Virus record (IMG/VR): IMGVR_UViG_3300007735_000800
Location: 62,001 to 126,000 of that record
DNA: 64,000 nucleotides
Direction: 5' to 3' (one strand)
Source: a virus
A model generated the notes under the pieces. The model was not told the origin of the DNA, ran no database searches, and saw only the letters and a program-made list of their open reading frames with translations. Both the position numbers and the translations under genes were made by a program. Of the stretch, positions 23,230 through 53,221 are shown piece after piece (position 1 is the first letter of the stretch; each line of letters opens with the position of its first letter).

Positions 23230-23916
23230 ATGGATAACAAGAATAATAGACAATTTTTTTGGGAAGTCAAGCAATTTTTTAATAAACCTCAGTTGAACGA
23301 GTCTGCTACTCCAAAACCGGATTTACTCAATACAGTAAAAAGTATAATGAGTTCCGACAGAGGGATAGACGGTGGAACTGAATTTAAAGTGCGAGAAGGA
23401 ATTATAAATTCTGGAAGAGATTTGAAACAAAAAACTGCTGATCTTTTAGACAGCTACAGTCATAAAAAATATACACAGACACCTTTGTCTTCAGGAAAAG
23501 GTCAAAACAGAACCGGTAATTTGTTTAACATAAATGAACAAAATATAGATGTAAAAAAACCAAAAGTAACTACTGAAAAAATTCTTGGGTTGGCTGCACA
23601 AAAACAAGATAATGAAGCCATGAATTATAGTTTCAATGCAACAGCTCCCGGAATGCAAAAGGTAAATTTTCCACAAAATCAAAAATATGCTGTTCAAGGA
23701 ACAAATAGAAAAAGTGGAATAAAGTCTGATGTTTATTCTATGGCCAAGGAAAGATTAGCTCTTCAAAAAATGTATAGCAAAATTGCAACTCCTAGACAAA
23801 TAAAAACAACAGGTAACGAAGGAAATGTTGGAGTCAATGTAACTTCCAAGTTGAGCAGTCAAGCTCCAGTAAATAAAACTGATCCGAGCCAATTAAACGC
23901 ACAAGAACTATTATAA
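23230..23916 (+). CDS. Putative head-packaged protein with L-N-E cleavage site
   Basis: 228 aa, low-complexity, Lys/Asn/Gln-rich and probably disordered. The N-terminus is amphipathic (FFWEVKQFFNKPQLNE) and ends at an L-x-E site about residue 25, like a T4 capsid-targeting sequence processed by the gp21 prohead protease. It begins a co-directional run of three genes with one-base overlaps (TAATG). No enzymatic motif. The targeting role is inferred. Confidence 0.6.
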   Translation: MDNKNNRQFFWEVKQFFNKPQLNESATPKPDLLNTVKSIMSSDRGIDGGTEFKVREGIINSGRDLKQKTADLLDSYSHKKYTQTPLSSGKGQNRTGNLFNINEQNIDVKKPKVTTEKILGLAAQKQDNEAMNYSFNATAPGMQKVNFPQNQKYAVQGTNRKSGIKSDVYSMAKERLALQKMYSKIATPRQIKTTGNEGNVGVNVTSKLSSQAPVNKTDPSQLNAQELL

Positions 23917-24917
23917 TGATTCCTCCAGTATTACATAAAATACTACATGAAAAATATGTTCAAACGAAGTTTGGTACACTTCGTGATGAAGATGACCAAT
24001 TAAAAGGTTGGCAAAGAGGTGAATATGGATCATTTGTATATCCAGGGCAATTAAGTAGAGGTGGGGATTTTGGGCAGTTTCCTCCAGAATCTGGCTTACC
24101 ACCAACAGAACCGCCCCAAACACCTCCTGGAGGAGGACCGGAGGGACCACGAGGTGGAAAACCAAAACAACCTTCAGGAGATCGCCCTCCAAGTAGAGCT
24201 TCTGAAATGGGAAGAAGATTTAGAGGAGCTCCAGAAAAACCTTCTTATGGTGGTATCCCATCAAGAGAAGGTGTGAGATTATCACCATACTTCTTTGATG
24301 ATATGGGGGGAGAAAACGTAAAATATTTTCAAGATTTGGTAAATAAATATAATCCACCCCCACCACCACAACCACCAAAATCAAAATTTTCTATTTCTCC
24401 TGAAGTAACAGGACTAGGAAAATTTGCAACTTCCATGGCAGCAGGAAGTGCAGCAGGGTATTATCCTGCAAAATGGACACAAGAATTAACACAACCTTAT
24501 CTGGGTGATATAGGCTCTTATTATGCAGGAACAGTGGCTGGAACTGCGGCTGGAATTCCAGCAGCAGAGATTGCGGTTACTGGAATCCCAGCGCTAATGG
24601 CAGGTGAAGGTATTGGTGGGGCAGCTTCATTGACAGCAGCTGCAGCCGGAAGCCAATTATTAAATCCTCTTACTTGGGTAACTGCCTTAGGTTTGGCAAC
24701 CATTTATCCAGCAGAAATTATAAAAGCAGAACAGCAGGCTAAAGTGTTGGAAAGAATAGAAAAAGAAGAAAGACTTAGAGAAAATAAAAGAAAAACCAAT
24801 GAAATATTGGGAATTAAAGAAGAAGATGATAATTGGTGGGAAGAATTTAAATATGATTTTAAAAGAGCAATGGCAGTTGGTGGGGCAGATGCAATAATGT
24901 CAGGAGGAAGAATGTAA
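23916..24917 (+). CDS. Pro-rich protein with a long Gly/Ala hydrophobic segment
   Basis: 333 aa. Possible targeting peptide MIPPVLHKILHE. Residues about 55-165 are Pro/Gly-rich and unstructured; residues about 180-275 are hydrophobic and Gly/Ala-rich (GTVAGTAAGIPAAEIAVTG, LTAAAAGSQLL), which could insert in a membrane; the C-terminus is charged. A head-packaged protein that crosses or disturbs the host membrane on entry is possible. No family recognised. Confidence 0.55.
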   Translation: MIPPVLHKILHEKYVQTKFGTLRDEDDQLKGWQRGEYGSFVYPGQLSRGGDFGQFPPESGLPPTEPPQTPPGGGPEGPRGGKPKQPSGDRPPSRASEMGRRFRGAPEKPSYGGIPSREGVRLSPYFFDDMGGENVKYFQDLVNKYNPPPPPQPPKSKFSISPEVTGLGKFATSMAAGSAAGYYPAKWTQELTQPYLGDIGSYYAGTVAGTAAGIPAAEIAVTGIPALMAGEGIGGAASLTAAAAGSQLLNPLTWVTALGLATIYPAEIIKAEQQAKVLERIEKEERLRENKRKTNEILGIKEEDDNWWEEFKYDFKRAMAVGGADAIMSGGRM

Positions 24918-25834
24918 TGAAAAAATTAAAACCAGTTCTACAAAATATATTATTTAAAAGATATGTAAATTCATTGTTAAATGAACAATCTATTGCACCT
25001 CCACCAATCAGACTTCCATCGGCTGGATATGCACCATGGAAATTACCTACCCCGAATGCAATTAGACCTACTTTTGAATTACCAGTTACGCCAACAGAAG
25101 TTTCTCCTGGCACAACTACAATTTTTGCAAATCCCAATGTGCCTCCAGGCTCAGGCGCAGAACAAACTAAGAAAAAGTTAAGCTTTGATGATGCTCAAAC
25201 CGTAATAAAAAATGAAATAGAATCAGGATTGTCAAAAACAAAAAATCAAAAAGAACTAGTAGATTATGTTTTTGATAAACAAACAGAACTTTTATCAGAT
25301 TCTGAATATGGAGATCAATTGTCAATCTATGCCGGAAATGAAATAAAAAATAGATTGGGATTGGCTAAAACAGAAACACTACCAACACCGATTGAACCAA
25401 AACCTTTTAAATTTCCAACACAAAATCCGAAAGAAGTAATAAAACCGTCACCATTAACTACGACCCCTTCCACCGCCCCTGTTGAAGAACCAGAATTTAA
25501 TTATTCTCCAAAAGAAAAATCTGTGACACCCACTCTGAGTGCATTGTTTCCTTCCATGGTTCCCATTAGGTATTCTAAATTAAGAGCCTCACCAGATGAA
25601 GAATTGGAACTTCAAACAAAGTCTGAGTTTAAAGGACCAGAAAAATTTAAAACAGCAGTTGGTAGTGACGAATTAGAAATACGTCGAAAAGATGGAATGG
25701 GAACATTTCCCGGTATGGAACCATCTGAACAAGATGAAATAGAGCCATACGAAGGTTCTATGTATGATGTTGATGCAGATTTGTTATTAAAGAACATTTT
25801 AGGAAAATATTCTGGAACTTATAGAATTGAGTGA
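24917..25834 (+). CDS. Putative head-packaged protein with L-N-E cleavage site
   Basis: 305 aa. MKKLKPVLQNILFKRYVNSL is followed by LNE at about residue 23 and then by a Pro-rich linker, as in the two genes before it. Residues about 75-150 are helical, the rest Pro/Thr-rich with acidic patches. One-base overlap with the upstream gene. Function unknown; packaging inferred from the N-terminus. Confidence 0.55.
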   Translation: MKKLKPVLQNILFKRYVNSLLNEQSIAPPPIRLPSAGYAPWKLPTPNAIRPTFELPVTPTEVSPGTTTIFANPNVPPGSGAEQTKKKLSFDDAQTVIKNEIESGLSKTKNQKELVDYVFDKQTELLSDSEYGDQLSIYAGNEIKNRLGLAKTETLPTPIEPKPFKFPTQNPKEVIKPSPLTTTPSTAPVEEPEFNYSPKEKSVTPTLSALFPSMVPIRYSKLRASPDEELELQTKSEFKGPEKFKTAVGSDELEIRRKDGMGTFPGMEPSEQDEIEPYEGSMYDVDADLLLKNILGKYSGTYRIE

Positions 25835-25842: not shown

Positions 25843-26511
25843 ATGGAAGTGTGTGAATTTAAAAAATTTAATCATCTTGTAAATCCAATAAAATGTGAAT
25901 TAAAGGAAGTTACAAAAAACGGAAAACGTTTTTATGCAACTCCGGTTGGAGAATTCCCAAGCGTAACTACAGTTGTTGGTTTTAAGAAACAGCAATTTTT
26001 TGCTGAATGGAGACAAAAAAATCCAGAAGAAAGCAAAAGAGTAACGACTAGAGGAACAAAATTTCATAAAATAATAGAACAGTATTTGAATAATGAAGTC
26101 TTGGATCTAGATTCTATAGGATCTGGAAACAAGGCTTTGTTCCTTTTATTGAAACCAGAGCTCGACAAGATAGATAACATCATAGCACTTGAAACTCCCC
26201 TGTGGTCAAAAACAATAGGTCTTGCGGGTAGAACAGACTGTATAGCAGAATATGATGGCAAGCTTTCAATAATAGATTTTAAAGCCAGCACAAAAGAAAA
26301 AAGAAAAAGCGATATTGAAAATTATTTTCTCCAGGCATGTGCATATGCTTTGATGTATCAAGAACAAACTGGGCAGATAATAGACAATTTTTCCATCTTA
26401 ATAGCATGTGAAGATGGTTTACGCCAAGTATTTGAAGACAAACCAATAAAATACGTAAGAGAACTAAAAAATATAATAACAGAATATAAGGAACGGTATG
26501 GAAATTCGTGA
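25843..26511 (+). CDS. PD-(D/E)XK exonuclease (RecB/Cas4-like)
   Basis: 222 aa. The catalytic core GLAGRTDCIAEYDGKLSIIDFKAS (residues about 126-149) has the D...(D/E)xK arrangement (IDFK), and the upstream TRGTKFHKIIEQYL supplies the family His-containing helix. Such enzymes in T4-like phages are single-strand exonucleases of recombination. A TATAAT box ends 2 nt before the annotated ATG, so a GTG two codons downstream could be the true leaderless start. It overlaps the next gene by 14 nt. Confidence 0.75.
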   Translation: MEVCEFKKFNHLVNPIKCELKEVTKNGKRFYATPVGEFPSVTTVVGFKKQQFFAEWRQKNPEESKRVTTRGTKFHKIIEQYLNNEVLDLDSIGSGNKALFLLLKPELDKIDNIIALETPLWSKTIGLAGRTDCIAEYDGKLSIIDFKASTKEKRKSDIENYFLQACAYALMYQEQTGQIIDNFSILIACEDGLRQVFEDKPIKYVRELKNIITEYKERYGNS

Positions 26512-27076
26512 ATTAAAAAATATGGAAGATTTTGTTAATAGAAGAGGTTCCAAGTATTGGATTATGATGAATGACAGCTCAAAGGCCAAACTACACAGAG
26601 AAGCTCATATTAAAAAATATGGTGGATTTTTTGAAAAACAGGATAGATTTTTTATTTGGAGATCGCCAGTAGAAGAAAAAAATGGTTATTGGCTGAAAAA
26701 TATTCATACTAACGAAAAAACTTTCTTCAGCAATATGAAAGAATTTGGGGAAAAGAATGGCCTTACTGCTGTAAAAATATGTGAACTTTTAAATGGAAAA
26801 AGAAAAACATATAAAGGATGGACTGCGGTAGAGATAAGAGAAGTCAAGGATGGAGTTGGTTCCAATATAAAAGCCAAAAATGAACCAAAAAAGAAAATAA
26901 AGGTTTTTGAAGGTGCAACTTTCCAAAATATGGAAACAAAGCAAGTGTTCTTTGTTGATAATATAAGTGAGTACGCAAAAGCAAATAATATCAATGGCGG
27001 AAATTTATATAAAGTCGCCAGGGGTAAGATGAAAAGCTACAAAGGTTTGAAACTTTATAACCCACTAGAACCTTAA
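26498..27076 (+). CDS. Protein with two NUMOD-like DNA-binding repeats
   Basis: 192 aa. Two related modules, (S)NMKEFGEKNGLTAVKICELLNG..KTYKGW (about residues 76-108) and (D)NISEYAKANNINGGNLYKVARG..KSYKGLKLY (about 151-186), look like NUMOD helix-turn-helix repeats of homing endonucleases. No HNH or GIY-YIG nuclease domain is visible, so this may be a homing-endonuclease remnant or a DNA-binding regulator. Confidence 0.6.
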   Translation: MEIRELKNMEDFVNRRGSKYWIMMNDSSKAKLHREAHIKKYGGFFEKQDRFFIWRSPVEEKNGYWLKNIHTNEKTFFSNMKEFGEKNGLTAVKICELLNGKRKTYKGWTAVEIREVKDGVGSNIKAKNEPKKKIKVFEGATFQNMETKQVFFVDNISEYAKANNINGGNLYKVARGKMKSYKGLKLYNPLEP

Positions 27077-27096: not shown

Positions 27097-29457
27097 ATGA
27101 ACTTCAAAGATTTATTAAAATTAACAGAAGAAAGCCGCACCAAGGCAGATTCTTTCCGTACAACTGGTGAAGCAACTCAAAAAGAGCGAGCAAAGTCTAG
27201 CGCTCCAGATGCAAAAGCCAAAGATGCCGCAAGAAAGCGTGTAGAAAGATCTAAAAAACTTCCAAGGGATAGAATGCCAAAGGAGCAACTCATCCGAGAA
27301 GTTATCGCAGTAAGAACAGCCTCTGGTAGAGTACAATTAATCTTTAAAGATTCTTTCAATAAAAATGTACATACTAAAATAAATCGTGGCGACACTCTTA
27401 CCATGGAGGAAGCCAGATCTTTCACCCAGGAGGATGGGTTTGAACAAACAGGTGCTTCAAAACTTTTGTTTGGAGATGTCAAAACAAAAGAACCAACGGA
27501 TAAAAGAGTAGCAAAAAAGGGGGAAGAGGGAGAAGAAAAGGAAGCTGAAGCCGAGGCAGAGCCTGAGCCCCTTGAAAAACCAGAGAAAAGAGCAAAAAGA
27601 CTGTCTCCAGAAGAAATATTTGATTTGATGAGCCAAATGGGTCCAGAACAATTGGCTCAAATGCCATTTGAGGTCAGACAGCAATATTTTAAACAAGTAA
27701 GAAATCCACCTTCAAATGTTGATTTTGATAACGCATCATTTGAAACTTTAAGCACAAAATTTGGTATCAATCCAATATCATCGGTTCCATACAATCAACA
27801 AGTTTTAAATGCATTGGTATTCTTGGCTAAGATAAAATCTGGTGCCAGCGAACAGGAGCTGGGTACATATACAGCATTAGCCCCAAGTGCACTGGAGTTT
27901 ACAAAAAATGCATTCCTGCAGGCAAAGAAAATATTGTCACAAATAGGTGAACAATGCATTCAAAACTTAATATCAACAATTGAAAATGGAAGCAAGAGCA
28001 CCTTCAGTGAGGGTGGCGTTGATATGGAATGTGGAAATTATAAATTTAAAATGTCCGTTGGTGGTGAAGTCTCTTTGACCACAGATAAGTTTAATCAAGA
28101 AGGAAAAGGAATAAGAGGAATTATTGCCACCGCTATAAATCAAACTCTAAACAATCCTGAAACCATGAATGACCCAAAAGTGAAGGAATTTATATCAACT
28201 TCAGGACAAGTTGGATCAAAATTTGGCCAAAAATTAATAAATCAACAAACATTTTCATCTTTAAAGAATTCACCAGATGTTATAGAACAATTGAAGCAAA
28301 CAATGGTCTTTGGAGAAAATGGACAAGCATTGGGACCTTATGTTGATTCAAAAGGAAATCTTAATAAATTTGCATCTTTTGAGAATTATGAAAAAGAAAT
28401 AACCAAAGATGCTTCATCTTTGTTTAAATCCTCTAAAGATAAACCAAATGGTTTTGCATCAAATTTTGTAAAAACTGTTTTGAAAATGTTTTACAGGGGT
28501 GATGGAATAAAACAACCAGAATTTGCGCCAACACACATGATAACACAAAATGGGGTATTTCCCATGACGGATGCCTATTTTGATGAAATATCAAAAACTG
28601 CAGTTTTAACAATGAACAATGTTAAGCCACTGATCAGTGCTGCAAACATAGAATCGGGAAAGAAAAAACCATCTGAAAGATTGGCTCAATTTGCAACCGT
28701 AGTCGAAGAAACACAAAAGCAAAAAGAACCAGATATTTTTATTGATAGATCAAATATAAATCCATTGCAATTAGCAATGGCTTCTATATCACAAAGCATG
28801 GAATTTGATATCAATGCCAGTCTTTTACCTGGATTCTCTCCAAAAGACCTTAATGCTATACAATATAATATAGTAAGAATCGGTAAAAAGACTGTAAGAA
28901 TCCCAGTTGAGAGAAATGACACAGTTACAAATGAGATAATGGCAGAGAGTCATATACTGGTAAATGATATTTTAGTTGAATCTTTGACAAATAATTTTGT
29001 TTTGAATACATTGCTAGCATCAAGATTGATGACTAAAGATGAAGCAATATCAATTACTTCTGAAAACTTTTTGCTGGAAAGTGCAAATCCGATAAGATCA
29101 ATATATGAAAGAGTATTGACCAGAGTTAACAAAAATCCAGAGATGTTGATTGCAGTATTGAACAAATACAATTCTTATCTCTATGAAAAATATGTCCGTG
29201 ATTACAAAATGGAATACCGAAATTATCATGGAAAAGCAAAACAGAGAAAAGAAAGAGCAAAAAGAACAGCAGCTAGAGAAAATCTCATTAAAAAGGGAAG
29301 AGTAAAAAAGGGAGATGGTAAAGATATTGACCATAAAAAACCACTAAGAAGTGGTGGTTCAAATGGTATAAATAATTTACGAATCAGAAATAAATCTGAA
29401 AATAGAGCTGATAACGGCCACAAAAAAGGTGAAAAACAAAACAAGGATTGGAAATGA
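27097..29457 (+). CDS. Large putative head-packaged protein with C-terminal HNH nuclease
   Basis: 786 aa. The N-terminus MNFKDLLKLTEES looks like a capsid-targeting sequence with an L-T-E site. Residues about 20-210 are highly charged and probably extended; 210-700 is a helical body. The last 90 residues are basic (RKERAKRTAAREN) and end in an HNH core: DIDHKKPLRSGGSNGINNLRI.NKSENR..NGH. Only the histidines of a compact HNH without zinc cysteines are visible. A virion-delivered nuclease is the simplest reading. The stop overlaps the next start. Confidence 0.65.
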   Translation: MNFKDLLKLTEESRTKADSFRTTGEATQKERAKSSAPDAKAKDAARKRVERSKKLPRDRMPKEQLIREVIAVRTASGRVQLIFKDSFNKNVHTKINRGDTLTMEEARSFTQEDGFEQTGASKLLFGDVKTKEPTDKRVAKKGEEGEEKEAEAEAEPEPLEKPEKRAKRLSPEEIFDLMSQMGPEQLAQMPFEVRQQYFKQVRNPPSNVDFDNASFETLSTKFGINPISSVPYNQQVLNALVFLAKIKSGASEQELGTYTALAPSALEFTKNAFLQAKKILSQIGEQCIQNLISTIENGSKSTFSEGGVDMECGNYKFKMSVGGEVSLTTDKFNQEGKGIRGIIATAINQTLNNPETMNDPKVKEFISTSGQVGSKFGQKLINQQTFSSLKNSPDVIEQLKQTMVFGENGQALGPYVDSKGNLNKFASFENYEKEITKDASSLFKSSKDKPNGFASNFVKTVLKMFYRGDGIKQPEFAPTHMITQNGVFPMTDAYFDEISKTAVLTMNNVKPLISAANIESGKKKPSERLAQFATVVEETQKQKEPDIFIDRSNINPLQLAMASISQSMEFDINASLLPGFSPKDLNAIQYNIVRIGKKTVRIPVERNDTVTNEIMAESHILVNDILVESLTNNFVLNTLLASRLMTKDEAISITSENFLLESANPIRSIYERVLTRVNKNPEMLIAVLNKYNSYLYEKYVRDYKMEYRNYHGKAKQRKERAKRTAARENLIKKGRVKKGDGKDIDHKKPLRSGGSNGINNLRIRNKSENRADNGHKKGEKQNKDWK

Positions 29458-30605
29458 AAGTCAAGAAACTTCTTGAAAAAGTTTATGCTAACTCTGGTTT
29501 AGGAAAATGGTTCAATAAAGAATCTGGTGGTGGTGGTCCGGGATGGGATCGCTATAACACAAAAGGAGATAGAGTGGGCAAATGCGGAGATAGCGATGAG
29601 GGTGAACCATATGCAGCTTGCTTAAGCAAGCAAAAAGCAAAGAAGTTGGGAAAAGGTGGCGTTGGTTCTTTTGTAAGAAGAAAAAGAGCTGCCCAAAAGA
29701 AGGCTGGCAAGGGAACTAAAGGTTCAGTGAAAGGTAAAGGGAAAAAACCTGTATTTGTAAAAACTGGAGTCACCGAAGTCAAAGAATCATATGATATATT
29801 TTTAGTTGAGGGCGCATCTTCTGTTTTCACTATGCAATTTTCACCTATAGAAGCGTGGGAATTGCTGCCATGTGATTTGATAATAAATGAATCGGGTGAA
29901 ATTTTTGATGTGGATTATATTGAAGAAAAGGATGGAATCTTAATTGTTGAGATGACCGACGAAATTGGAAATGAAATAACGGAATATTTTAATAAAAACA
30001 CTGTAATGGGATTTTTGGATAATTTGGAAGAAACTTCAAGTAATGAGTTTGGAGATAAGATTGAAGTTTATGAGAGTGAAGGTAAAAAAGTTAAATTAAA
30101 CAAAATAATGCGTGGAGATGTTAAAAAATATAAAGTTTTTGTTAAAAATGATAAAGGCAATGTTGTAAAAGTTAATTTTGGTGATCCAAACATGGAAATC
30201 AAACGTGACGACCCAAACAGACGTAAAAACTTCCGTGCAAGACACAATTGCGACAACCCGGGCCCACGATGGAAGGCAAGATATTGGGCATGCAAAACAT
30301 GGAGCAGCAAACCAGTTACAGCAATGTTAAAAGAAGAAGACCTCATACTTGAAGCAAAGAAGAATAAGCCCAAAGATCCCGCTAAATGGTCTTCCTGCAT
30401 CTCACAGGCCAAGAAAAAGTTTGATGTGTATCCATCCGCATATGCAAATGCATGGGCTGCAAAGTGCTATAAAGGCAAAGGAGGAGGCTGGAAGAAGGTC
30501 TCCGAAGATGTTGCCCACAAAATGTTAAAAACACTGGAAAATAAAGAATACAATCCGAATTTATTTGGTTTGATGGAACAAAGAACTTTTAACAGAGATA
30601 AATAA
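29454..30605 (+). CDS. Putative head-packaged protein with DUF5872-like and NFRARHNCDN modules
   Basis: 383 aa from ATG 29454 (overlapping the previous stop). After a short basic N-terminus with an L-L-E site comes KWFNKESGGGGPGWDRYN..G..VGKCGD...YAACLS, a DUF5872-like module. Later comes DDPNRRKNFRARHNCDNPGP.WKARYWACKTW and then WSSCISQAKKKFDVYPSAYANAWAAKCYKG. These cysteine-containing modules recur in structural proteins of large phages. The middle part (120-230) is acidic. Function unknown, virion location inferred. Confidence 0.65.
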   Translation: MKVKKLLEKVYANSGLGKWFNKESGGGGPGWDRYNTKGDRVGKCGDSDEGEPYAACLSKQKAKKLGKGGVGSFVRRKRAAQKKAGKGTKGSVKGKGKKPVFVKTGVTEVKESYDIFLVEGASSVFTMQFSPIEAWELLPCDLIINESGEIFDVDYIEEKDGILIVEMTDEIGNEITEYFNKNTVMGFLDNLEETSSNEFGDKIEVYESEGKKVKLNKIMRGDVKKYKVFVKNDKGNVVKVNFGDPNMEIKRDDPNRRKNFRARHNCDNPGPRWKARYWACKTWSSKPVTAMLKEEDLILEAKKNKPKDPAKWSSCISQAKKKFDVYPSAYANAWAAKCYKGKGGGWKKVSEDVAHKMLKTLENKEYNPNLFGLMEQRTFNRDK

Positions 30606-30614: not shown

Positions 30615-31148
30615 ATGAAATTTAAACAATTATTACAAATAACAGGACCCATCTATGAAAATTCTGGTGAACAAACCTTTGGTGGTGGTTTGTTCATCGG
30701 TGATCCACAAGCACCAAATAAATCAAGTGCATTGACAGATAAAGGAACTTTCAACATAAAACTTCCTCGTTCTTTAGATGCAATTAATGCTTTGTTGTAC
30801 GGTCTTGGACAAAAAGAATACATTGATCCGGATTCAGTTCTTAATGTTGTAAAACAAAAATTAAATCATTTTGGATTTGATTTTCAATATATGAATTCCC
30901 TTCCAGATGGCGAGACTTTGATCAAGCTATTCCAATATGGAAGTCCATATATCGGTGTTTATGGAATGACTCCTCACCAAGACGTAAATGAAACAGGATT
31001 CTCTTCTGATGGTATCAAGGAAAAACTTGGTCACGGCTTAAACTTAAGAGTAAATATAGTAAAACAGCCAAACATGTTACGCAAGGTCGAACTTATGATC
31101 GTCCCTGCAATGGATAGTGAGAATTCTGATTGTGGCTGCATGCACTGA
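30615..31148 (+). CDS. Putative head-packaged protein with I-Y-E cleavage site
   Basis: 177 aa. N-terminus MKFKQLLQITGPIYE, a targeting-like sequence with I-Y-E at residue 15. The remainder is a compact alpha/beta domain, with a Cys-rich end (DCGCMH) that could bind metal. A GATAAATA box lies upstream near 30597. No family recognised. Confidence 0.55.
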   Translation: MKFKQLLQITGPIYENSGEQTFGGGLFIGDPQAPNKSSALTDKGTFNIKLPRSLDAINALLYGLGQKEYIDPDSVLNVVKQKLNHFGFDFQYMNSLPDGETLIKLFQYGSPYIGVYGMTPHQDVNETGFSSDGIKEKLGHGLNLRVNIVKQPNMLRKVELMIVPAMDSENSDCGCMH

Positions 31149-31560: not shown

Positions 31561-33318
31561 ATGGCTGGCAAAACTTATATACCAACATTTTATTTTTATA
31601 ATTTTGCTGACTTAGTTGCTTCACCATATACTAAGTTTGCCGCATATGCTAGTGGACTTATAGATGAAAAAGGCAACTTGACCGGAAATGAATCATCTAT
31701 AGATCCATTAGAATATTTTGTAATTAAACTAAAGAAGATATTTGAACAATTGCCACCGGGCGTTACAAAATATAAACTTGGAAATATTATGGGAATAATG
31801 CAATTATTCTCAGAAGAAGTTTCATATTTTGGTGTCACAAAAGATCAATTCAATTGTTTGGTGGAAGCTCACATAACAAATATTACGGATGGTAAAGTGA
31901 GCTATTTGGAGTTATTGGAAGATATGAGTACTGGAGGAATGGCTGGTGGGCTTGGGAAGCCTGCAGATGCGCCTGAAGCAAATAAGGGAAACGTATCAGG
32001 ATATGATCCTGTCATGGGTTCTCTCCAGAGCAGATCGGGACCAGTTAACATGATCGGTGCGGTAGAAATGTTTGGAGTTCCTTCTTCCGAATTCCAAATG
32101 ATGAAGAAAACAAATGCATATCCAAAAAATGCAACAGGAAATTATTTGAGAAGATTTGGATTGAGAAATGCCGATAAAAAGATGGCAATAAGGGATGAAG
32201 AAACTGGAGAGATTCACTGGCTCCCGGCTCCAAACAAAAAAACGTTTGTGGAGAAATTTAATTTGAATGATTTAAATATATTAAAAGAGTCTTTTATAGA
32301 ACCTGAAACAACTCCATCTGGGAATTCAGCTAAATCTGAAGTGTGGGCTTTAAAAGCTGTATCAAATTTTTTAAGTAAAAATTTTGAACATGTTCCATGG
32401 GAAGGCGAATTGGGTCCAGGAGAATTTGCTGTATCTACTGGTGGTAGAGGCAAACTCGATATGAAATTAAAAGATCGAGATGGTGTGGAAATACCAATAG
32501 AAGTAAAAAGTATAAAAGCCAACCCAAGTTATACTGCTTTTAATATGGATTTATCTACGAAAAATAATCCAAAAGGTGTAGCCACATATGCATCGACTGC
32601 TCACGGATTAACTGACATATATGATCCAGAATATGAAGAGCAAATTGATGACTTACTTAGAGGAAGTCCAATAGAAAATATTTCCAAACAATTAGAAGCA
32701 AGAGGAGAAAAATTTACAGCACATGGAATCCCGAGCATAGGGTATAGATCTCTTCAACAAAGAGGAGTACCAATACTCGGTAGCCCTCAAAGAGCAAGAG
32801 AAAGGGTTTTAGGCTGGAGAAAGGGACTGTTGGACATTGTTGGTAATGAAAAAAGAGGTGTTGTTCTTGCTGTGAATCCTGAGATGCGCCATATGCATGT
32901 TTTAAATATGGAAACTGGCCAGAATGGTTCTGCAGTTAACAGATTATTAAGAGATATGGGTGGTCTTGTTCCAACCGGAACAGCATCAACACCAAATGTT
33001 GAGAGTGGAATGTATTTGCCATATGTAAAAATGGCAAAAGGATCCAACCCAGAGGAAAGAAAACTAAGAAAAACCTTGAGAGATCAGGGAGCTAGCCCAG
33101 AAGAAATTGCAAGAACTTTGGCAAGTGCTAAAAAGGCTGGAGATATACCACAAGCAAGAAGAATGTTACGTGTAGATTATAGATTCTCTCCAGATGGATC
33201 TACTGATGATCCATGGGTAAGAAATGGTCAAATCGCATTTGGAGATTTGAATCTGGGAAATAGAGAAAATTTTAGAGATTGGGAAAAAGAATTAGAAAGA
33301 TTATCCAGAGCAGAATAA
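31561..33318 (+). CDS. Large late protein with a PD-(D/E)XK-like core
   Basis: 585 aa. The N-terminal region TFYFYNFADLVASPYTKFAAYASG is typical of a conserved structural-type protein of large T4-like phages. In the middle (about residues 280-330) GRGKLDMKLKDRDG...PIEVKSIKA has the spacing of a PD-(D/E)XK nuclease active site (D...E-x-K). The C-terminal third is basic. A CCTAAATA box ends 6 nt before the ATG. A nuclease that is packaged or acts late is possible; the family is not certain. Confidence 0.55.
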   Translation: MAGKTYIPTFYFYNFADLVASPYTKFAAYASGLIDEKGNLTGNESSIDPLEYFVIKLKKIFEQLPPGVTKYKLGNIMGIMQLFSEEVSYFGVTKDQFNCLVEAHITNITDGKVSYLELLEDMSTGGMAGGLGKPADAPEANKGNVSGYDPVMGSLQSRSGPVNMIGAVEMFGVPSSEFQMMKKTNAYPKNATGNYLRRFGLRNADKKMAIRDEETGEIHWLPAPNKKTFVEKFNLNDLNILKESFIEPETTPSGNSAKSEVWALKAVSNFLSKNFEHVPWEGELGPGEFAVSTGGRGKLDMKLKDRDGVEIPIEVKSIKANPSYTAFNMDLSTKNNPKGVATYASTAHGLTDIYDPEYEEQIDDLLRGSPIENISKQLEARGEKFTAHGIPSIGYRSLQQRGVPILGSPQRARERVLGWRKGLLDIVGNEKRGVVLAVNPEMRHMHVLNMETGQNGSAVNRLLRDMGGLVPTGTASTPNVESGMYLPYVKMAKGSNPEERKLRKTLRDQGASPEEIARTLASAKKAGDIPQARRMLRVDYRFSPDGSTDDPWVRNGQIAFGDLNLGNRENFRDWEKELERLSRAE

Positions 33319-34631: not shown

Positions 34632-34639
34632 TATAAATA
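34632..34639 (+). promoter_or_regulatory. T4-type late promoter TATAAATA
   Basis: Exact TATAAATA ending 5 nt before ATG 34645. Confidence 0.65.
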
Positions 34640-34644: not shown

Positions 34645-35391
34645 ATGGCAAATAAAATAAACAAATATTCCTGGATTCATGACTTAAATCGAGCTGCTAT
34701 TGAAGCACAGATGTTATCTGAAGCCACAACATACTCCAATATGGTTGAATTAAATGAGGCAAAAAGAAATATACGCATGGGTCAAATAGAAAGACCTATG
34801 ATTGACATTAGCCCAGAAGAAAATGCAATTCAAGGATTGGGAAGAATAATGAAAGATATTACTGGCATGTCCCGACCCAGAATGAAAAGATTTTCAGGTG
34901 ATATAGTTAACATAGGATCAAGAATTCCTGGTAATCCAAATTTTATTGCGCCTCCAAGTGAAAATGAATTATTGGCAAATATGGGTGAGGAAGAAAGATT
35001 ACTAAGAGCAAGATTAGCAAAGGTCAAAGGATCAGTAGATTCAAAACCAAGAGATTTTGATGGTGATGGTGATGCAGATGCATTTGACGTTGAAATTGAT
35101 GCAAAAGATGGAATCATGGGAAATTTTGGAAATGAAACAGTACGAAGACTTCCGAGTTTTGAATTTGCTAGAAAAGAAGGAGTTCCAGAACCAAGACAGC
35201 ACCCCGCACCCCAATTCTCAAGCAAGGAAGAGGCAGAGGCGTTTGTAAGACAATTGAACCAACAATCTCGTGGTGAAAATTCACTAATGGCTGATTTGGA
35301 CATTGAATTGGATAAGATGAAGGCAAGAGCTGGGCGCAAGGGAACCATGAGTGAAATGGAAGCAATCGCAAGAATTCTTGGAGGTCGCTGA
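34645..35391 (+). CDS. Putative head-packaged protein with a Ca-binding DxDGD loop
   Basis: 248 aa. The first 45 residues are helical with an L-S-E site at about 26 and L-N-E at about 39. At about residue 138 the sequence DFDGDGDADAFDVEID is a dockerin/EF-hand-like calcium loop. The C-terminal part is helical and charged. One-base overlap with the next gene. Packaging and calcium binding are inferred from sequence. Confidence 0.6.
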   Translation: MANKINKYSWIHDLNRAAIEAQMLSEATTYSNMVELNEAKRNIRMGQIERPMIDISPEENAIQGLGRIMKDITGMSRPRMKRFSGDIVNIGSRIPGNPNFIAPPSENELLANMGEEERLLRARLAKVKGSVDSKPRDFDGDGDADAFDVEIDAKDGIMGNFGNETVRRLPSFEFARKEGVPEPRQHPAPQFSSKEEAEAFVRQLNQQSRGENSLMADLDIELDKMKARAGRKGTMSEMEAIARILGGR

Positions 35392-39330: not shown

Positions 39331-39348
39331 CAATAGGAATCACAAATA

Positions 39349-40389: not shown

Positions 40390-40408
40390 TAAAAACTTAA
40401 CTTTAGAA

Positions 40409-40438: not shown

Positions 40439-40463
40439 TTTAATAAATACTTTGGAGAGAATT

Positions 40464-42041: not shown

Positions 42042-42113
42042 GCGGATGTAACTCAATGGTAGAGTGCTAGCCTTCCAAGCTTGCTGTTGAGGGTTCGAAT
42101 CCCTTCATCCGCT
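42042..42113 (+). tRNA. tRNA-Gly(UCC)
   Basis: Acceptor GCGGATG/CATCCGC, D-arm AACTCAATGGTAGAGT, anticodon loop CTTCCAA (TCC), T-loop TTCGAAT. CCA not encoded. First of a three-tRNA cluster. Confidence 0.93.
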
Positions 42114-42115
42114 TT

Positions 42116-42187
42116 GCCACTTTAGCTCAACGGAAGAGCAGTGCTTTTGTAAAGCACAGGTTGCGGGTTCGAATCCCACAAGTGGCT
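42116..42187 (+). tRNA. tRNA-Thr(UGU)
   Basis: Acceptor GCCACTT/AAGTGGC, D-arm AGCTCAACGGAAGAGC, anticodon loop TTTGTAA with TGT, T-loop TTCGAAT. 2 nt after tRNA-Gly. Confidence 0.93.
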
Positions 42188-42190
42188 TTT

Positions 42191-42272
42191 GCGAGTATAC
42201 TCAAGCGGTCAACGAGGACGCGCTGTAAACGCGTTGGCATTGCCTACGGGGGTTCGAATCCCTCTGCTCGCA
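42191..42272 (+). tRNA. tRNA-Tyr(GUA)
   Basis: Acceptor GCGAGTA/TGCTCGC, anticodon loop CTGTAAA with GTA, a long variable arm as expected for bacterial Tyr tRNA, T-loop TTCGAAT. 82 nt. Confidence 0.92.
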
Positions 42273-42275
42273 TTC

Positions 42276-42935: not shown

Positions 42936-43550
42936 ATGCATAACATTAACATTCCACATTTTTATTGTCTTTTAAGAAAAGAACATCTTTACCAAGATGA
43001 AAAATTTAAAGGTGAATATGAAAAGGTAACGGTTTTTTCAGCTCAGTCTAATCCAGACCGAGCGATGCTTTTTTCTGTGATGTTGGACAATGGAACCATA
43101 AGAAGCAGAGTTCCAATCAATAAACTCTGCAGTAGAGAATCTGCAATTCAACCATTGGATCATTTGCAGCTATGGGATTGCTTCTCTATGAATTGCACGG
43201 TAATTTCATATGATTATTTGAAGGGTTCAAGGGCAAAAGTAATATTCAAAGATAAGACTTATTCATGGGGAAATTACATGATGACATTTGATTGGTATGA
43301 CAATCCATACAGCGATGCCCCCACCCAATATAAATGTCTTCATATGATTGAATTGGATAATGGAAATTATGCATTGCAGCCAAACAACAGAATTTATTGG
43401 AAACATATGTCTTTTGTCACAAAACCATTTCCAATGAATCCAGATTACAAAGTTGACAACAAAATTTATAGATGCGAAGACAAGAGCGACAGATGGATTG
43501 TCACCGGTGATGATGATCAATATTATTATGATATAGAAGAAGATAAATAA
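42936..43550 (+). CDS. Conserved phage protein of unknown function
   Basis: 204 aa from ATG 42936; the longer frame from 42888 would start inside the tRNA-like element and is rejected. Aromatic-rich, mixed alpha/beta (FDWYDNPYSDAPTQYKCLHMIELDNGNYALQPNNRIYWKH). Such proteins occur in T4-like marine phages without assigned function. It ends 2-10 nt before the tmRNA acceptor piece and is probably co-transcribed with it. Confidence 0.65.
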   Translation: MHNINIPHFYCLLRKEHLYQDEKFKGEYEKVTVFSAQSNPDRAMLFSVMLDNGTIRSRVPINKLCSRESAIQPLDHLQLWDCFSMNCTVISYDYLKGSRAKVIFKDKTYSWGNYMMTFDWYDNPYSDAPTQYKCLHMIELDNGNYALQPNNRIYWKHMSFVTKPFPMNPDYKVDNKIYRCEDKSDRWIVTGDDDQYYYDIEEDK

Positions 43551-43552
43551 AA

Positions 43553-43614
43553 ATGGTATTGTTGATAACGGATTGAAATGCGACAACACAGGGGTTCGAT
43601 TCCCCTCGGCTCCA
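43553..43614 (+). ncRNA. ssrA: Permuted tmRNA, acceptor piece
   Basis: T-arm AGGGG-TTCGATT-CCCCT (43590-43606), 3' acceptor strand CGGCTCC (43607-43613) and discriminator A; CCA not encoded. The strand pairs with GGGGCTG at 43711-43717 to form the alanine-type acceptor of the tRNA-like domain. TAACGG (43566-43571) and TGCG (43579-43582) can pair with CCGTTA (43759-43764) and CGCA (43734-43737) of the coding piece as the P2 helix. The 5' end is estimated. Confidence 0.85.
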
Positions 43615-43710
43615 TTAGCCTAACCGAAGGATTCTGCAATTCCTTAGAGATGGCGATCCAAGTCCTCGTAGCAGCGGGGCAATCCCCGAAGTCCTAGGCT
43701 TCGGGAATCA
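43615..43710 (+). other. Intervening (excised) segment of the permuted tmRNA precursor
   Basis: 96 nt between acceptor and coding pieces. AGCCTA near its start pairs with TAGGCT near its end, and it contains hairpins AAGGA/TCCTT and GGGG/CCCC. It should be removed by tRNA-type processing (RNase P at the GGGG end, 3' nucleases at the discriminator). Confidence 0.7.
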
Positions 43711-43840
43711 GGGGCTGAAATGGCTTCGACTGGCGCAGAGTAATGAAGAAGGAGATACCCGTTACTGGCAACGAGGAACGTGAAACAACAGTTGCAAATT
43801 TAATTGCCGAAGAATTGGCAATAGCTGCTTAAAGCAGTGG
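43711..43840 (+). ncRNA. ssrA: Permuted tmRNA, coding piece with degradation tag
   Basis: Begins GGGGCTG, then the D-loop-like GGCTTCGACTGG typical of tmRNA. The tag frame, probably from GGC 43767, reads to TAA 43830-43832 (21 residues) and ends ANLIAEELAIAA, with the AA end recognised by ClpXP-type proteases. The sequence before the resume codon is short, so PK1 may be reduced or absent. A terminator follows directly, so there is no 3' half downstream: the gene is circularly permuted and the mature molecule is two-piece. Confidence 0.88.
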
Positions 43841-43845
43841 GGTTT

Positions 43846-43882
43846 CCCGGTTTTCCCGCATCTGAAAAACCGGGATTTTTTA
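43846..43882 (+). terminator. Terminator of the tmRNA gene
   Basis: Stem CCCGGTTTT / AAAACCGGG followed by ATTTTTTA. Confidence 0.88.
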
Positions 43883-43886
43883 TTGG

Positions 43887-43894
43887 CATAAATA
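43887..43894 (+). promoter_or_regulatory. Late-promoter-like CATAAATA
   Basis: Ends 5 nt before ATG 43900 and fixes that start. Confidence 0.6.
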
Positions 43895-43899
43895 TTTTT

Positions 43900-44496
43900 A
43901 TGATTATAAAATCTGGAAAACATTGGTTGGTGAAAGATTCCTCTGGTAAGAAAATATTAGGAAGACACCCATCAAAAGAAAAAGCAGTCAAACAACTGGC
44001 AGCTATTGAAATTTCAAAGAAAAAACGCGGTGTGAAAGAACAAGCAGAAAGCATAAATAATTTTATGAATCCAACAGACAACTACTTTAAATTAAAATGC
44101 GCAGATCTTTATGAACAAAAGAAAATTTTGTTAAATTATTTAAGAAAACTCGATGAGGATATTGCATCTGTAGCACAACAACCAACACAACAACAAAATC
44201 AACAACAAACCCAACAATCAGTAAAAGGCATGGGGAAGCGTGGAAAAAAGATGATTGGACAACAGGGTGAAGAGCAACCTCAAGATCCAAGAATTCCAGT
44301 TCAAATGCAAGGATTTGCTGGTACACCACAACTTCAAGCAGCTCGTCTCGATGTTATTCAAAAATATTCTGACAACCCAATGACACAGCAAATAGAAGAG
44401 CCAGGAGAAGTAAGTTGGCAAAATGTTAATGCCAGCATCGGAAATGAGAGACAAGAAGCTTTACGTAAACTAATGATTCAACAGAGAATGGCATAA
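43900..44496 (+). CDS. Late protein with internal coiled-coil leader-like segment
   Basis: 198 aa from ATG 43900; the ORF start at 43837 would lie in the tmRNA and terminator and is rejected. The N-terminal KSGKHWLVKDSSGKKILGRHPSKEKAVKQLAAIE is a small domain seen in phage and bacterial hypothetical proteins. Residues about 55-90 (NYFKLKCADLYEQKKILLNYLRKL) resemble the N-terminal leaders of 39349 and 44499, followed by a Gln-rich linker. Function unknown. Confidence 0.6.
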   Translation: MIIKSGKHWLVKDSSGKKILGRHPSKEKAVKQLAAIEISKKKRGVKEQAESINNFMNPTDNYFKLKCADLYEQKKILLNYLRKLDEDIASVAQQPTQQQNQQQTQQSVKGMGKRGKKMIGQQGEEQPQDPRIPVQMQGFAGTPQLQAARLDVIQKYSDNPMTQQIEEPGEVSWQNVNASIGNERQEALRKLMIQQRMA

Positions 44497-44498: not shown

Positions 44499-45158
44499 AT
44501 GAATAGCAAACAAGAAAAACATTTAATCCAATATTACGAAAATTTAGCAGAAGAGCTATCTTACAAAGTAAATCTTCTGGAAAAGATTATTGCAAAAAAG
44601 AAAGCCGCAAAGAAAAAGGCAAAAAAAGACTACGACAAAGACGGAAAGCTTGAATCACCAGAAGAAGAATGGAAGGGTTCAAGAGATGCTGCCATCAAGA
44701 TGAACATGGCAAAGAAATCAAAGAAAAAATTTGCTTCAAAGAAAAAACAAAAACTTCAAGAGGGAACTGTAATAACTGACGGAGAACTTTGCTACGGTGG
44801 GTTCCCAAGAATTTTAAGAGAAAATGAAGAAGAAGGAAACTGGCAAGAATTTATTGGATTGGTAAATCAAGCCCAAAGAGGTTATTTTGACAGCTTGCCA
44901 GGAATAAAAGGGAAAAAAACAATGCCTTCCCATATTGATAGAATGGTAACAGCATTCATTAATGACCCGTCAGAAGCTGGAGATAATGTTACTGATGATT
45001 TAATCCAAGCAGGATTCCCAGCAGAGACAATTGGAAGGGCCGCAAGAATCAGAAGAGCTTCCATTAAGCAGCAGAAAGCTTCTCAAGGAAGATCTGATCC
45101 ATCATTGCGTGGCACTTATAGACCAGGCTTTGACAGAAGCGCTTCACCGTTTGATTAA
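44499..45158 (+). CDS. Coiled-coil leader protein with an EF-hand-like loop
   Basis: 219 aa. Leader LIQYYENLAEELSYKVNLLEK, then a very basic stretch (AKKKAAKKKAKK) and DYDKDGKLESPEEEW, a canonical EF-hand-type calcium loop at about residue 47. More Lys-rich sequence and a helical C-terminus (EFIGLVNQAQRGYF) follow. Two nucleotides after the previous stop. Putative packaged DNA-binding protein; inference only. Confidence 0.6.
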   Translation: MNSKQEKHLIQYYENLAEELSYKVNLLEKIIAKKKAAKKKAKKDYDKDGKLESPEEEWKGSRDAAIKMNMAKKSKKKFASKKKQKLQEGTVITDGELCYGGFPRILRENEEEGNWQEFIGLVNQAQRGYFDSLPGIKGKKTMPSHIDRMVTAFINDPSEAGDNVTDDLIQAGFPAETIGRAARIRRASIKQQKASQGRSDPSLRGTYRPGFDRSASPFD

Positions 45159-46966: not shown

Positions 46967-47272
46967 ATGCTTTCCTTCAAACAATTCCTCGTAGAAAAAT
47001 CACCCGCATGGCAACGCAAGGAAGGTAAAGATCCTGAAGGTGGCCTCAACAAAAAAGGTGTAGCATCCTATCGCAGGCAGAATCCCGGTTCAAAACTGCA
47101 AACAGCAGTTACCGAGAAGCCATCAAAACTAAAGCCAGGATCAAAGAAGGCCAAGAGAAGAAAATCATTCTGCAGCCGCATGAAGGGAATGAAGGCGAAG
47201 TTGACATCGAAGAAGACCGCAAACGATCCAAACTCAAGAATCAATAAGTCCTTGAGAAAATGGAATTGTTAG
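46967..47272 (+). CDS. Putative head-packaged basic protein (DUF6321-like)
   Basis: 101 aa. N-terminus MLSFKQFLVE|K is a close look-alike of the T4 internal-protein targeting sequence (M-K-T-Y-Q-E-F-I-A-E). The rest is the DUF6321-like pattern SPAWQRKEGK.PEGGLN.KG.ASYRRQNPGS.L..AVTEK followed by RRKSFCSRMKGMK and a basic end KSLRKWNC. A small basic DNA-binding protein released by the prohead protease and packaged with DNA is likely. Confidence 0.7.
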   Translation: MLSFKQFLVEKSPAWQRKEGKDPEGGLNKKGVASYRRQNPGSKLQTAVTEKPSKLKPGSKKAKRRKSFCSRMKGMKAKLTSKKTANDPNSRINKSLRKWNC

Positions 47273-51082: not shown

Positions 51083-51676
51083 ATGAAAAGTTTTAAGGAA
51101 TATCTCATGGAAGGTTCCGGTGGTCAGATATTCGGAATCGACCCATTTGGAAACAGGGCCAAGGCGGAAATAATGAAGATGGCCGCAAATATCGGCTACA
51201 CGGTTGCAGAAGGCCCGAAGCACACGAAAATAATAAATCCAAAGACAGGTCAACTGGTCGCAGCGATCAGCCATGGAGCCAACCGAAGTGAGTACAACGA
51301 AAGATTGGTTCTCAAGAATCTTGCCAAGGATCTTGAGGCATCGGGAAGCCAACTCCGACCCCAGATGCCGGCCAAGACCGTTGCAGACAGAATACGCAGC
51401 GGAACCCAACAGGGAAAAATATTCCCAAGAGCCGCAGGACTCCCCGGAATCGCAGCACAGGTAGCCGGAGAAGCCCTTGCAGCGCCAGTACAGCAAGCAG
51501 GAGAGGAATCGGGACTCATTGATTTAATCGCCAGAGGAATAAACGCAGTAATTCCAACGGACATTCTTGCATCAGGCCCATCACCAGCAGAGGAAGAACG
51601 CCAAGAGCAGGAAACAGAGGAAAGATTGAAAAAAATGGGAGTCAATCCAAAAATAATGAGAAGTCTACCAATATGA
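51083..51676 (+). CDS. Putative head-packaged protein (CTS operon, gene 1)
   Basis: 197 aa from ATG 51083, 5 nt after an ACTAAATA late box; a longer frame to 50732 is antisense to an early gene and rejected. N-terminus MKSFKEYLME|G is a T4-like capsid-targeting sequence with an L-M-E site. The body has a conserved-looking NPKTGQLVAAISHGANRSEYNERLVLKNL segment and an Ala-rich hydrophobic stretch (PGIAAQVAGEALAAPV). Coupled to the next gene (ATGA). Confidence 0.65.
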   Translation: MKSFKEYLMEGSGGQIFGIDPFGNRAKAEIMKMAANIGYTVAEGPKHTKIINPKTGQLVAAISHGANRSEYNERLVLKNLAKDLEASGSQLRPQMPAKTVADRIRSGTQQGKIFPRAAGLPGIAAQVAGEALAAPVQQAGEESGLIDLIARGINAVIPTDILASGPSPAEEERQEQETEERLKKMGVNPKIMRSLPI

Positions 51677-52383
51677 AAAGATTCAAAAAATTCTTAATTG
51701 AAATGGAAGCAACATCAACCGACAGCACATTGTCATCAAATACAAGTGCATCAGCGCCCCCGGGTTACCACAGACTTCCATACATAAACCCAACCATGCC
51801 GGGTTACCCATATCCCGTTGAACCCGACATGAAACCAGCAAGCGAAAACGAGAACGCACCGCCAAACCCGATAGACTGGCAGGAAGTTGATGATAGAATG
51901 AGAGACATTGAAGAAGGATTCAATGAATGGATGAGGCTTATAAATGCTCTGGGTTGGGATGGTTTCCTACTATGGCTGAAAAATAATTTAGGCATAAATT
52001 TGGGAAATATAAACACAGATGATTTTTTCCTGTGGTACACTAACAGATATCTCGACAGATTTGATCAATGGTTCAGAGAAAATTATCCAGGCGCAAGTCA
52101 ACAACAACGAGACACATGGTTCGCTAAAAAAGCTCTCTTGCGTGATAAATTATCTGAAATTTTTAACAGACACATTTATCCATCAACTCCCGGAAATCCA
52201 AACCCGTGGTTACCATTTGGTGGAGCCGATGATGACAGATACAGGCCCATGGACATAAATGATCCAAGTACATGGGAGAATTTTGACACTGAAAACAACC
52301 CATTTTTGAGACCTTGGTGGCGTGAACCAAATCGCATACGCGATGATCCAATGAAACCATATCCAGGAGTATATCAGGGATGA
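51673..52383 (+). CDS. Putative head-packaged protein (CTS operon, gene 2)
   Basis: 236 aa. N-terminus MKRFKKFLIE|M. Then a Pro-rich linker (residues 25-70), a helical middle rich in Trp/Phe (GWDGFLLWLKNNLG, FFLWYTNRYLDRFDQWF) and an acidic Trp/Pro-rich tail. Function unknown. Overlaps both neighbours by 4 nt. Confidence 0.65.
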   Translation: MKRFKKFLIEMEATSTDSTLSSNTSASAPPGYHRLPYINPTMPGYPYPVEPDMKPASENENAPPNPIDWQEVDDRMRDIEEGFNEWMRLINALGWDGFLLWLKNNLGINLGNINTDDFFLWYTNRYLDRFDQWFRENYPGASQQQRDTWFAKKALLRDKLSEIFNRHIYPSTPGNPNPWLPFGGADDDRYRPMDINDPSTWENFDTENNPFLRPWWREPNRIRDDPMKPYPGVYQG

Positions 52384-52757
52384 GAAGATTCAAAGAATTT
52401 TTAGAAAATTATGATCCCTACCTCGATGATCCTTCTCAATTCCGCCCGGACGGAACCAGAAAGGGAAAGGGATGGCTTGGAACATTCAAGAATGCCAAGG
52501 GGCAGGATGTATCTGAATATTCGGTATCAGTCCCTACTGAGGAATTATATGACATGGATCTTCCAAAGGGAGCAATATTGAACAAGCCAGAGACTCTGAT
52601 TCCAACATTGGTTCCTGATCTAGATGATTCAGAGGTAGAATCGGTAGTGAAGGCAACAGAGAACGAGGACAGCGAATTACCGGATAGCGTCATGAAAAAG
52701 GCATTTTCTCATGCCCAAAGCCAAGTAAGACAAGGAAGAAGTCAGTTCAGACAATGA
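52380..52757 (+). CDS. Putative head-packaged protein (CTS operon, gene 3)
   Basis: 125 aa. N-terminus MRRFKEFLE|N. The middle, RPDGTRKGKGWLGTFKNAKG..VSEYSVSV followed by IPTLVPDLDDSEV, is a small conserved phage domain (GWLG..K...G...TE.S) known from structural proteins of diverse phages. 4-nt overlaps on both sides. Confidence 0.65.
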   Translation: MRRFKEFLENYDPYLDDPSQFRPDGTRKGKGWLGTFKNAKGQDVSEYSVSVPTEELYDMDLPKGAILNKPETLIPTLVPDLDDSEVESVVKATENEDSELPDSVMKKAFSHAQSQVRQGRSQFRQ

Positions 52758-53221
52758 AAAGTTTTAAGAAATTTTTAGAGGAAGAAAAACAAAAAGCTTC
52801 CATTCAAGATGAGGCAGACAGACGCCTTAAATTTGAGAGGGAAGTCATGGGAATGGAAGATAATGGAACATACGCTATTGAAGCAGATCGAAGATTGCAG
52901 TTAGTGAATCAAATTACAAAAGAACGAGAAGCAGCTTTCCCCGAAGAGGCCAAAAATAAAAGATTTGACAGAGCAATTCAAAAGCATGGTACTGAATTTG
53001 CAGCTATGAATATTCCCTATCTTACACCTTGGCTAAAAGGAAAGGTTTTGGCTGCAACAAACCGGCTAAAAGGAAACCCAACCGAAAGAGTGAATTCTGA
53101 AATTTCAGTTTTATTAAATTATCCAAAAGAATTTGATACAGGTGTCTTGCCGCAAAATACAGTAAGAGTTGCACCTAGCGCAACAGCCGAACAAAAGAAA
53201 AAAGAAATATTTCTACCATAG
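52754..53221 (+). CDS. Putative head-packaged protein (CTS operon, gene 4)
   Basis: 155 aa. N-terminus MKSFKKFLEE|E. Charged helical body with a repeated EADRRL (residues about 21 and 43), and a C-terminal LLNYPKEFDTGVLP. Last gene of the operon; transcription then enters the non-coding region. Function unknown. Confidence 0.65.
   Translation: MKSFKKFLEEEKQKASIQDEADRRLKFEREVMGMEDNGTYAIEADRRLQLVNQITKEREAAFPEEAKNKRFDRAIQKHGTEFAAMNIPYLTPWLKGKVLAATNRLKGNPTERVNSEISVLLNYPKEFDTGVLPQNTVRVAPSATAEQKKKEIFLP

Follow-up and report, generated by a model that had tools for sequence, protein, structure and literature searches.

Leader Genes of the Window

The window analyzed here is a 64,000-nucleotide stretch (bases 62001–126000) of the 126,277-base T4-like virus record IMGVR_UViG_3300007735_000800 (G000), an uncultivated phage; positions are those of the window unless given as genome positions. 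Between 23230 and 53221 it carries a series of plus-strand genes whose products open with an N-terminal leader ending in a Leu/Ile-x-Glu (LxE) site, and it is quite likely, on our analysis, that these are late proteins with removable prohead-loading leaders of several families, cut by a gp21-type protease. The original prediction, made from the DNA alone, had proposed at least a dozen such proteins filling most of 30 kb. Sixteen supported leader genes were found in the window, covering 14.7 kb or 49% of the 30-kb span, so the number was borne out and the "most" was not. The set extends beyond the window, with members at genome positions 1938–5510 (-), 24250 (+), and 40029 (+), giving 24 genes and 19.4 kb in the genome; the right end of the window (53.5–64 kb) was not found to be part of it. 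All ten N-termini that had been quoted are present where they were placed or at in-frame ATGs there.

A near-perfect version of the T4 capsid-targeting leader, M..FK.FL.E, opens five of the proteins. The strict motif M..F[KQ].[FYLH][LIV].{1,2}E was matched by 5 of the 126 called genes, compared with a chance level of 0.0105 on average and 1 at most (2000 N-terminal shuffles) and with none of 473 internal Met windows. Short leaders (a slash marks the predicted cut) are found at 46967–47272 (MLSFKQFLVE/K, ahead of a basic DUF6321 domain, E 1.5e-20), at 51083–51676 (MKSFKEYLME/G, a strict match beginning at an internal ATG of the 50732 open reading frame, ORF), at 51673–52383 (MKRFKKFLIE/M, a strict match for which homology to G063_37391 begins at residue 11), at 52380–52757 (MRRFKEFLE/N, with the G041 homolog reading MKNFKQFLENYDPYLD), and at 52754–53221 (MKSFKKFLEE/E, a strict match). 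The L/I-x-E ending ascribed to the quoted leaders fails at 52380, which ends in FLE with Phe at P3. As a DNA pattern, the short leader gave five matches in G000, all on the coding strand, with none in a backwards control. The pattern was absent from the five cyanophage and pelagiphage (marine) isolates searched, while a close variant matched T4 three times (ipII, ipIII, 61.1) and S-SCSM1 once. In T4 (NC_000866), ipII and ipIII start with MKTYQEFIAE/A and ipI with MKTFKEF...ITE/A. Only the short class resembles this MKTYQEFIAE-type leader of 10–20 residues, and the likeness to the T4 capsid-targeting sequence (CTS) therefore holds for this class and not for the long and third classes described below. 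T4 gene 61.1 itself (NC_000866, 18966–19130 (-), a hypothetical protein of 54 aa) was also seen to open with a perfect CTS-like MKTFKEFIKE.

Conservation of the Predicted Cut Site

The gene at 27097–29457 encodes a conserved 786-aa leader protein (MNFKDLLKLTE/E), and that at 30615–31148 a conserved leader protein beginning MKFKQLLQITGPIYE/N. IMG/VR relatives were fetched for both (53 and 19, respectively) and distinct N-termini were counted. In the 27097 family, [LIV]-x-E is kept in all 37 distinct N-termini, at residue 11, 12, 13, or 18, with ten identities of the middle residue and Ala at P1' in 28 of the 37; shuffled controls had the site in a mean of 13.7 of 37 and never in more than 23. 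In the 30615 family, all 17 distinct N-termini have [IL]-x-E/N, with eight different middle residues, and in a leader gene lying between gp21 and gp22, outside the window, the site is found in 41 of 42 distinct relatives. Conserved P3 and P1 residues, a free P2, and a variable distance from the start have, judged from these alignments, the look of a protease site under selection. Neighboring 29454–30605 encodes a further conserved leader protein (MKVKKLLE/K), whose relatives have ILE/K or LLE/K behind variable N-termini; parts of it resemble a cyanophage virion protein family, with partial matches in S-BM3.

The 27097 protein had been read as an HNH nuclease. That reading is based on an HNH-like motif at its C-terminus and on PHROG 4590 (unknown function); the protein has no Pfam hit, and a search of its C-terminus against PDB sequences found nothing. 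Neither 27097 nor 30615 has a match among 50,697 phage records, and no fold in the PDB matched their AlphaFold models (predicted local distance difference test scores of 71 and 59, respectively) at E <0.001.

Long and Third Leader Classes

A second type of leader spans about 30 residues (MxYLTNYYKNLxEQLQxKVNxLE...LNE). Its M(D/N)YLTNYYKNLxEQLQ core is common to the protein at 39349 and two proteins at genome 1938–3190 (-), and a hidden Markov model (HMM) of the leader gave 15 clear matches (E <1e-7) in this genome and three relatives. In the window it is carried by the products of 39349–40389 (MNYLTNYYKNLSEKLQTQVNLLENRAQQLNE/A; leader HMM E 2.3e-15), 40464–41813 (...LLHE/T, Gly-rich; E 1.8e-10), 44065–44496 (MNPTDNYFKLKCADLYEQKKILLNYLRKLDE/D; 3.9e-5), and 44499–45158 (3.6e-10; relatives L167, L174, G063, and G001). 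The 44065 gene uses an in-frame start within the 43900 ORF, and its G063 homolog begins at the same Met.

In IMG/VR the YLTNYYKNL pattern matched 58 stretches, and the HMM finds 122 such proteins. The non-redundant set comprises 116 proteins, from uncultivated viruses, with bodies in about 54 unrelated clusters (45 with looser settings). [LIM]xE is present in 113 of the 116, LNE[ASGDVE] occurs 22 times in the leader region against 1.1 expected, and [LIM]NE reaches 10.7 per 1000 aa there against 0.15 in the bodies, about 70-fold denser. Conserved hydrophobic positions (4, 8, 11, 15, 19, 22, 26) follow a heptad-like spacing that suggests a coiled coil. Between paralogous leaders within one contig, third-base identity at identical residues was 0.64, against 0.52 expected from codon usage, so conservation is stronger in the peptide than in the DNA and points to selection rather than to recent duplication alone. 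Two unusual arrangements were observed: G066 14349–15086 (-) has the long leader in tandem duplicate at its N-terminus, and L148:327–1631 (-) has a second leader copy with LNE inside the protein, after about residue 147.

Searching the long leader by tblastn against the 50,697 phage records gave nothing convincing. A host clue from cellular genomes was also considered and rejected: only two matches to the long-leader DNA pattern were found in 84,980 genomes (GTDB), one of them in a marine Bacteroidetes assembly; neither site has a visible leader gene, the genomes have no gp21 or gp23 match, and the two matches look like chance.

A third class, F(K/N)DHLNxSNNLxDAA (in longer form FKDHLNxSNNLxDAAxQI..E), is found in this genome at genome positions 3464, 4095, and 4567 and also in G003, G066, L147, L164, L176, L179, and L180. 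T4 and P-TIM68 have neither the long nor the third class.

The remaining supported leader proteins of the window are encoded at 23230–23916 (MDNKNNRQFFWEVKQFFNKPQLNE/S, a leader type of its own, with the N-terminus conserved in G063, where LNE is also present, and in L187 and L182), 34645–35391 (MANKINKYSWIHDLNRAAIEAQMLSE/A, with L173 67% identical over the first 30 aa only), 35391–37838 (MKKLEDFLVTGLLNE/Q, 815 aa), and 38545–39330 (...ISFKKFLLE/I, with an N-terminal LLE or similar in relatives L151, L188, G063, and L173).

Exchange of Leaders on Homologous Bodies

In eight body families, leaders of more than one class are found, and mostly the homology starts at or just after the LxE. The GLKKAL body follows MKSFIQYLQE/S in L140 and MDYQAQYYKNLCEQLQGRINLLE/A in G001 (E 1e-51), and the RPxFIPLTxAY body follows a third-class leader in this genome and G066 and a long one in L136 (E 3e-45). 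The AEIxxPE body is preceded by MKSFKQHLEE or MKSFKEYLQE in L177 and L144 and by a third-class leader in this genome and G003, the DPxFLEKK body by a short leader in L180 and a long one in L172, and the MDADxAARQN body by short (L149), long (L167), and third-class (L176) leaders. Two more short/long pairs are L154/G063 and G066/G063. The body of 35391 has at least three N-termini across its homologs, with the long leader in L140, L155, and L181 and others in G063, L165, and G066; the G066 version may be a gene fusion. The junction itself is not visible in the G066/G063 pair or in the 35391 set, because there the alignment of the bodies begins well inside at least one of the proteins. From these natural swaps we infer that the leaders are functionally equivalent.

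The DUF6321 domain is found both with and without a leader. It follows MLSFKQFLVE in G000 and MKSFKQLRSDINE in Sf-CH11, both of which have an S77 protease, whereas the leaderless proteins of HTVC115P and G069 start with MAKSPAWQRKEGK and no S77 was found in either. DUF6321 proteins of apparently other phages (L208, L210, L223, L224, and L229) share an N-terminal tag RGxGxAxxxxGG, possibly another recurrent leader.

Bodies of the Leader Proteins

PHROGs, Pfam, and NCBIfam named almost none of the bodies. That these are very different from one another, calcium loops and a basic domain included, was confirmed: four have calcium loops, one is the basic DUF6321 protein, and one has the HNH-like end. 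Leader proteins account for eight of the genome's nine calcium-loop motifs (D.[DN].[DN]G); in the window these proteins are 34645 (one loop), 39349 (three dockerin-like loops; Dockerin_1 E 3e-8), 40464 (three loops; Dockerin_1 E 2e-7), and 44499 (an EF-hand-like loop, DYDKDGKLESPEEE).

A CTS-like short leader on a T4-lysozyme-like body was observed outside the window (genome 24250–24924) and in L140:13346–14179 and L136:1186–1977. Relatives match T4 gene e at about 27% identity (E 1.7e-8), and one of the proteins also has a LysM domain. Several relatives retain the single-domain form together with its leader. It would be unusual for a peptidoglycan hydrolase to be loaded into the head.

Head Module and Late Promoters

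The gp20–gp21–gp22–gp23 order is kept in the record, outside the window, in keeping with a T4-like gp23 lineage. It comprises gp20 (PHROG 213, E 9e-185), a pair of small genes (genome 38801–39384) placed between gp20 and gp21 as gp67/gp68 would be, a gp21-type S77 prohead protease (genome 39448–39882; PF03420, E 9.5e-42), the extra gene between gp21 and gp22, gp22 (PHROG 237), and gp23 (PHROG 138; PF07068, E 2.7e-134). The homologs of gp21 and gp22 that were to be sought elsewhere in the genome are thus both present, and PF03420 was found in G000 and 17 of 20 relatives. Close relatives of the record are IMG/VR contigs; its gp23 has <60% identity to any isolate, the best isolates being marine cyanophages. 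In T4, gp21 cuts a 65-residue propeptide from gp23 (PMC5694885). The gp23 maturation site reads [LI]xE in 53 of 53 clade members and also in two cyanophages. Adjoining the head module, at genome 46.7–56.9 kb, lies an island of genes resembling those for glycosyltransferases and sugar-nucleotide enzymes, judged by their N-termini only.

The T4 late promoter consensus is TATAAATA. This word is not over-represented (19 copies against 19.2 by chance) and only its position is informative: 14 of the 19 copies lie within 100 nt upstream of a same-strand start, where 1.0 would be expected at random, and by this positional signal it ranks first among 56 words of equal composition. The word precedes gp22, gp23, the gene at genome 34770, g1938, and, in the window, 29454 (29367–29374 (+), 87 nt before the gene), 34645 (34632–34639 (+), 13 nt upstream), and the 38351–41813 run of genes (38312–38319 (+)). 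The remaining leader genes have no such site of their own.

Other Features of the Region

Two further genes lack support as leader genes. The LNE site proposed for 24917–25834 (+) (MKKLKPVLQNILFKRYVNSLLNE/Q) marks a possible leader, unsupported because no relatives were found in which to check it, and the leader of the Pro/Gly/Ala-rich product of 23916–24917 (+) (MIPPVLHKILHEK), likewise without relatives, is also unsupported. The gene at 31561–33318 (+) encodes a conserved 585-aa protein of a collinear block, whose YIPxFYFYxFA N-terminus is a conserved domain and not an LxE leader. Two HNH-type endonuclease genes lie beside or inside the leader block, at 22692–23270 (-) and 26498–27076 (+) (PHROG 16726 and 2081). 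There is also a tRNA-Gly/Thr/Tyr array at 42042–42273, a transfer-messenger RNA call of the permuted type (43525–43923, tag AEELAIAA) that overlaps the start of the 43900 ORF, and a tRNA-Pro adjoining the DUF6321 gene.

Interpretation of the Leader Families

The leaders, the conserved cut-site signature, the swapping of leaders among homologous bodies, a gene for the protease, and the late promoters are all directly seen. To account for them, we propose that several mutually dissimilar leader families (short, long, third, and gene-specific variants) serve one purpose. Each leader would dock its protein on the prohead core, and the gp21-type S77 protease of the clade would cleave behind (L/I/V)-x-E, releasing the body within the head. 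Some of the released bodies would then accompany the DNA out of the head, as happens in T4, and others may stay in a structural or DNA-packing role. The leaders appear from these alignments to be interchangeable and are most likely alternative prohead-loading tags removed by gp21; the core protein to which they dock, or the stage of docking, may differ from leader to leader. The T4-like head packaging of the original prediction is in agreement with the CTS-like leaders, the S77 protease, gp22 and gp23, and the late promoters, while at least two further leader classes and the swapping had been missed.

A number of observations weigh against this proposal. A bare [LI]xE occurs within the first 45 residues of 23 of the 24 leader genes but also in 44 of 97 other genes; it was accordingly discarded as evidence, and the weaker examples of the original prediction need other support. 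The long and third leaders have no sequence resemblance to the T4 CTS. Only 13 of 49 long-leader contigs have S77, though most contigs are fragments, and neither gp21 nor gp23 was seen in G063 (117 kb), which fits a missing head module without proving it. The pairing of leader and S77 among DUF6321 proteins is two cases against two, on contigs that are mostly fragments, and is kept qualitative. Docking, cleavage, location in the head, and ejection are carried over from T4, all the evidence being at the level of sequence.

It is possible, though in our view doubtful, that the leader proteins are structural or core proteins of the head, kept or degraded in the virion, and not an injected arsenal. 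Together with others, 27097, 29454, and 30615 are conserved in collinear order in G063, G066, and G041, unlike the variable accessory internal proteins (IPs) of T-even phages. A cyanophage protein with a structural annotation contains domains of 29454 and 46967, and one leader gene sits between gp21 and gp22. However, a large number of the bodies (about 54 clusters) are unique or hypervariable, and some resemble enzymes (T4-lysozyme-like, and lysozyme with LysM). For 27097, 29454, 30615, and the member between gp21 and gp22, a structural head or core role fits at least as well as an injected arsenal, because these members are conserved and the first three are also collinear.

Two other explanations concern the long leader. 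With its appearance of a coiled-coil docking helix and its absence from T4 and P-TIM68, it might, like the third class, be a helix tying proteins to the tail, baseplate, or fibers, the LxE being incidental and only the short class being capsid-targeting. This seems unlikely given that the same body is found behind leaders of all three classes, with the join near the LxE, and that [LIM]NE is so much denser in the leader region than in the bodies. The tandem clusters of long-leader genes in G001, G002, and L136 could also point to paralogous expansion from one gene, with the N-terminus kept and the bodies diverged beyond recognition. We consider this more improbable still, since recombination at the junction is evident from homologous bodies that carry different leaders, and the bodies range from about 80 to 630 aa, some having domains that others lack (Dockerin, EF-hand).

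Comparison with Known Systems

Prohead loading by removable leaders is known from T4, where the CTS carries IPs into the prohead, is removed by gp21, and functions on almost any fused protein, the IPs being ejected with the DNA (PMC7697877, PMC5694885). T4 IPI, IPII, and IPIII block host GmrSD restriction enzymes, and at least ten Ips have been reported from T-even relatives, many found via the signal sequence (PMC12373910). The leader proteins described here share with T4 IPI–III and Alt a short amphipathic leader of near-identical consensus (MKTYQEFIAE in T4, MKSFKQFLIE here; PMC7697877, PMC12373910), the (L/I)xE site, an S77 protease, late promoters ahead of several of the genes, and variable bodies. 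They differ from T4 in having at least three leader families, about 24 genes in one genome, bodies of up to 815 aa, and leader swaps across classes, all in an uncultivated clade.

The head ejection proteins of SPN3US and phiKZ are comparable in that many head proteins carry an N-terminal propeptide that a prohead protease removes and that is proposed to help target them to the head (PMC5694885). Those propeptides are mostly >100 residues and the gp22 counterpart is unconfirmed, whereas gp22 is present here. To our knowledge they have not been described as one leader family that is shared and swapped among proteins. The cyanophage T4-GC0119 structural protein, with its C-terminal DUF6321, shares domains with 46967 and, N-terminally, with 29454, but in cyanophages this is often one long protein while here the genes are separate and 46967 has its own CTS-like leader. 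The CTS-tagged internal protein is thus a known kind; the number in one genome, the added leader families, and the evidence of exchange are new. No earlier description of these leader families or their exchange was found in the literature, most subscription papers lying outside the search.

The proteins of this record suggest a phage in which far more kinds of protein than in T4 are probably loaded into the head. It is somewhat more probable than the contrary that the clade, uncultivated and T4-like, has a plug-in system in which any of several unrelated leaders joined at an LxE loads a body into the head, among them a coiled-coil-like tag of about 30 residues not found among phage isolates. 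Prohead loading would then tolerate several unrelated tags. A sequence rule combining leader family and LxE would predict head-loaded proteins among the otherwise nameless proteins of this uncultivated phage group. As T4 IPI–III inhibit restriction enzymes (PMC12373910), the bodies offer a ready list of candidate host-takeover and anti-defense proteins, and the long leader could become a second, independent cargo-loading tag for phage heads.

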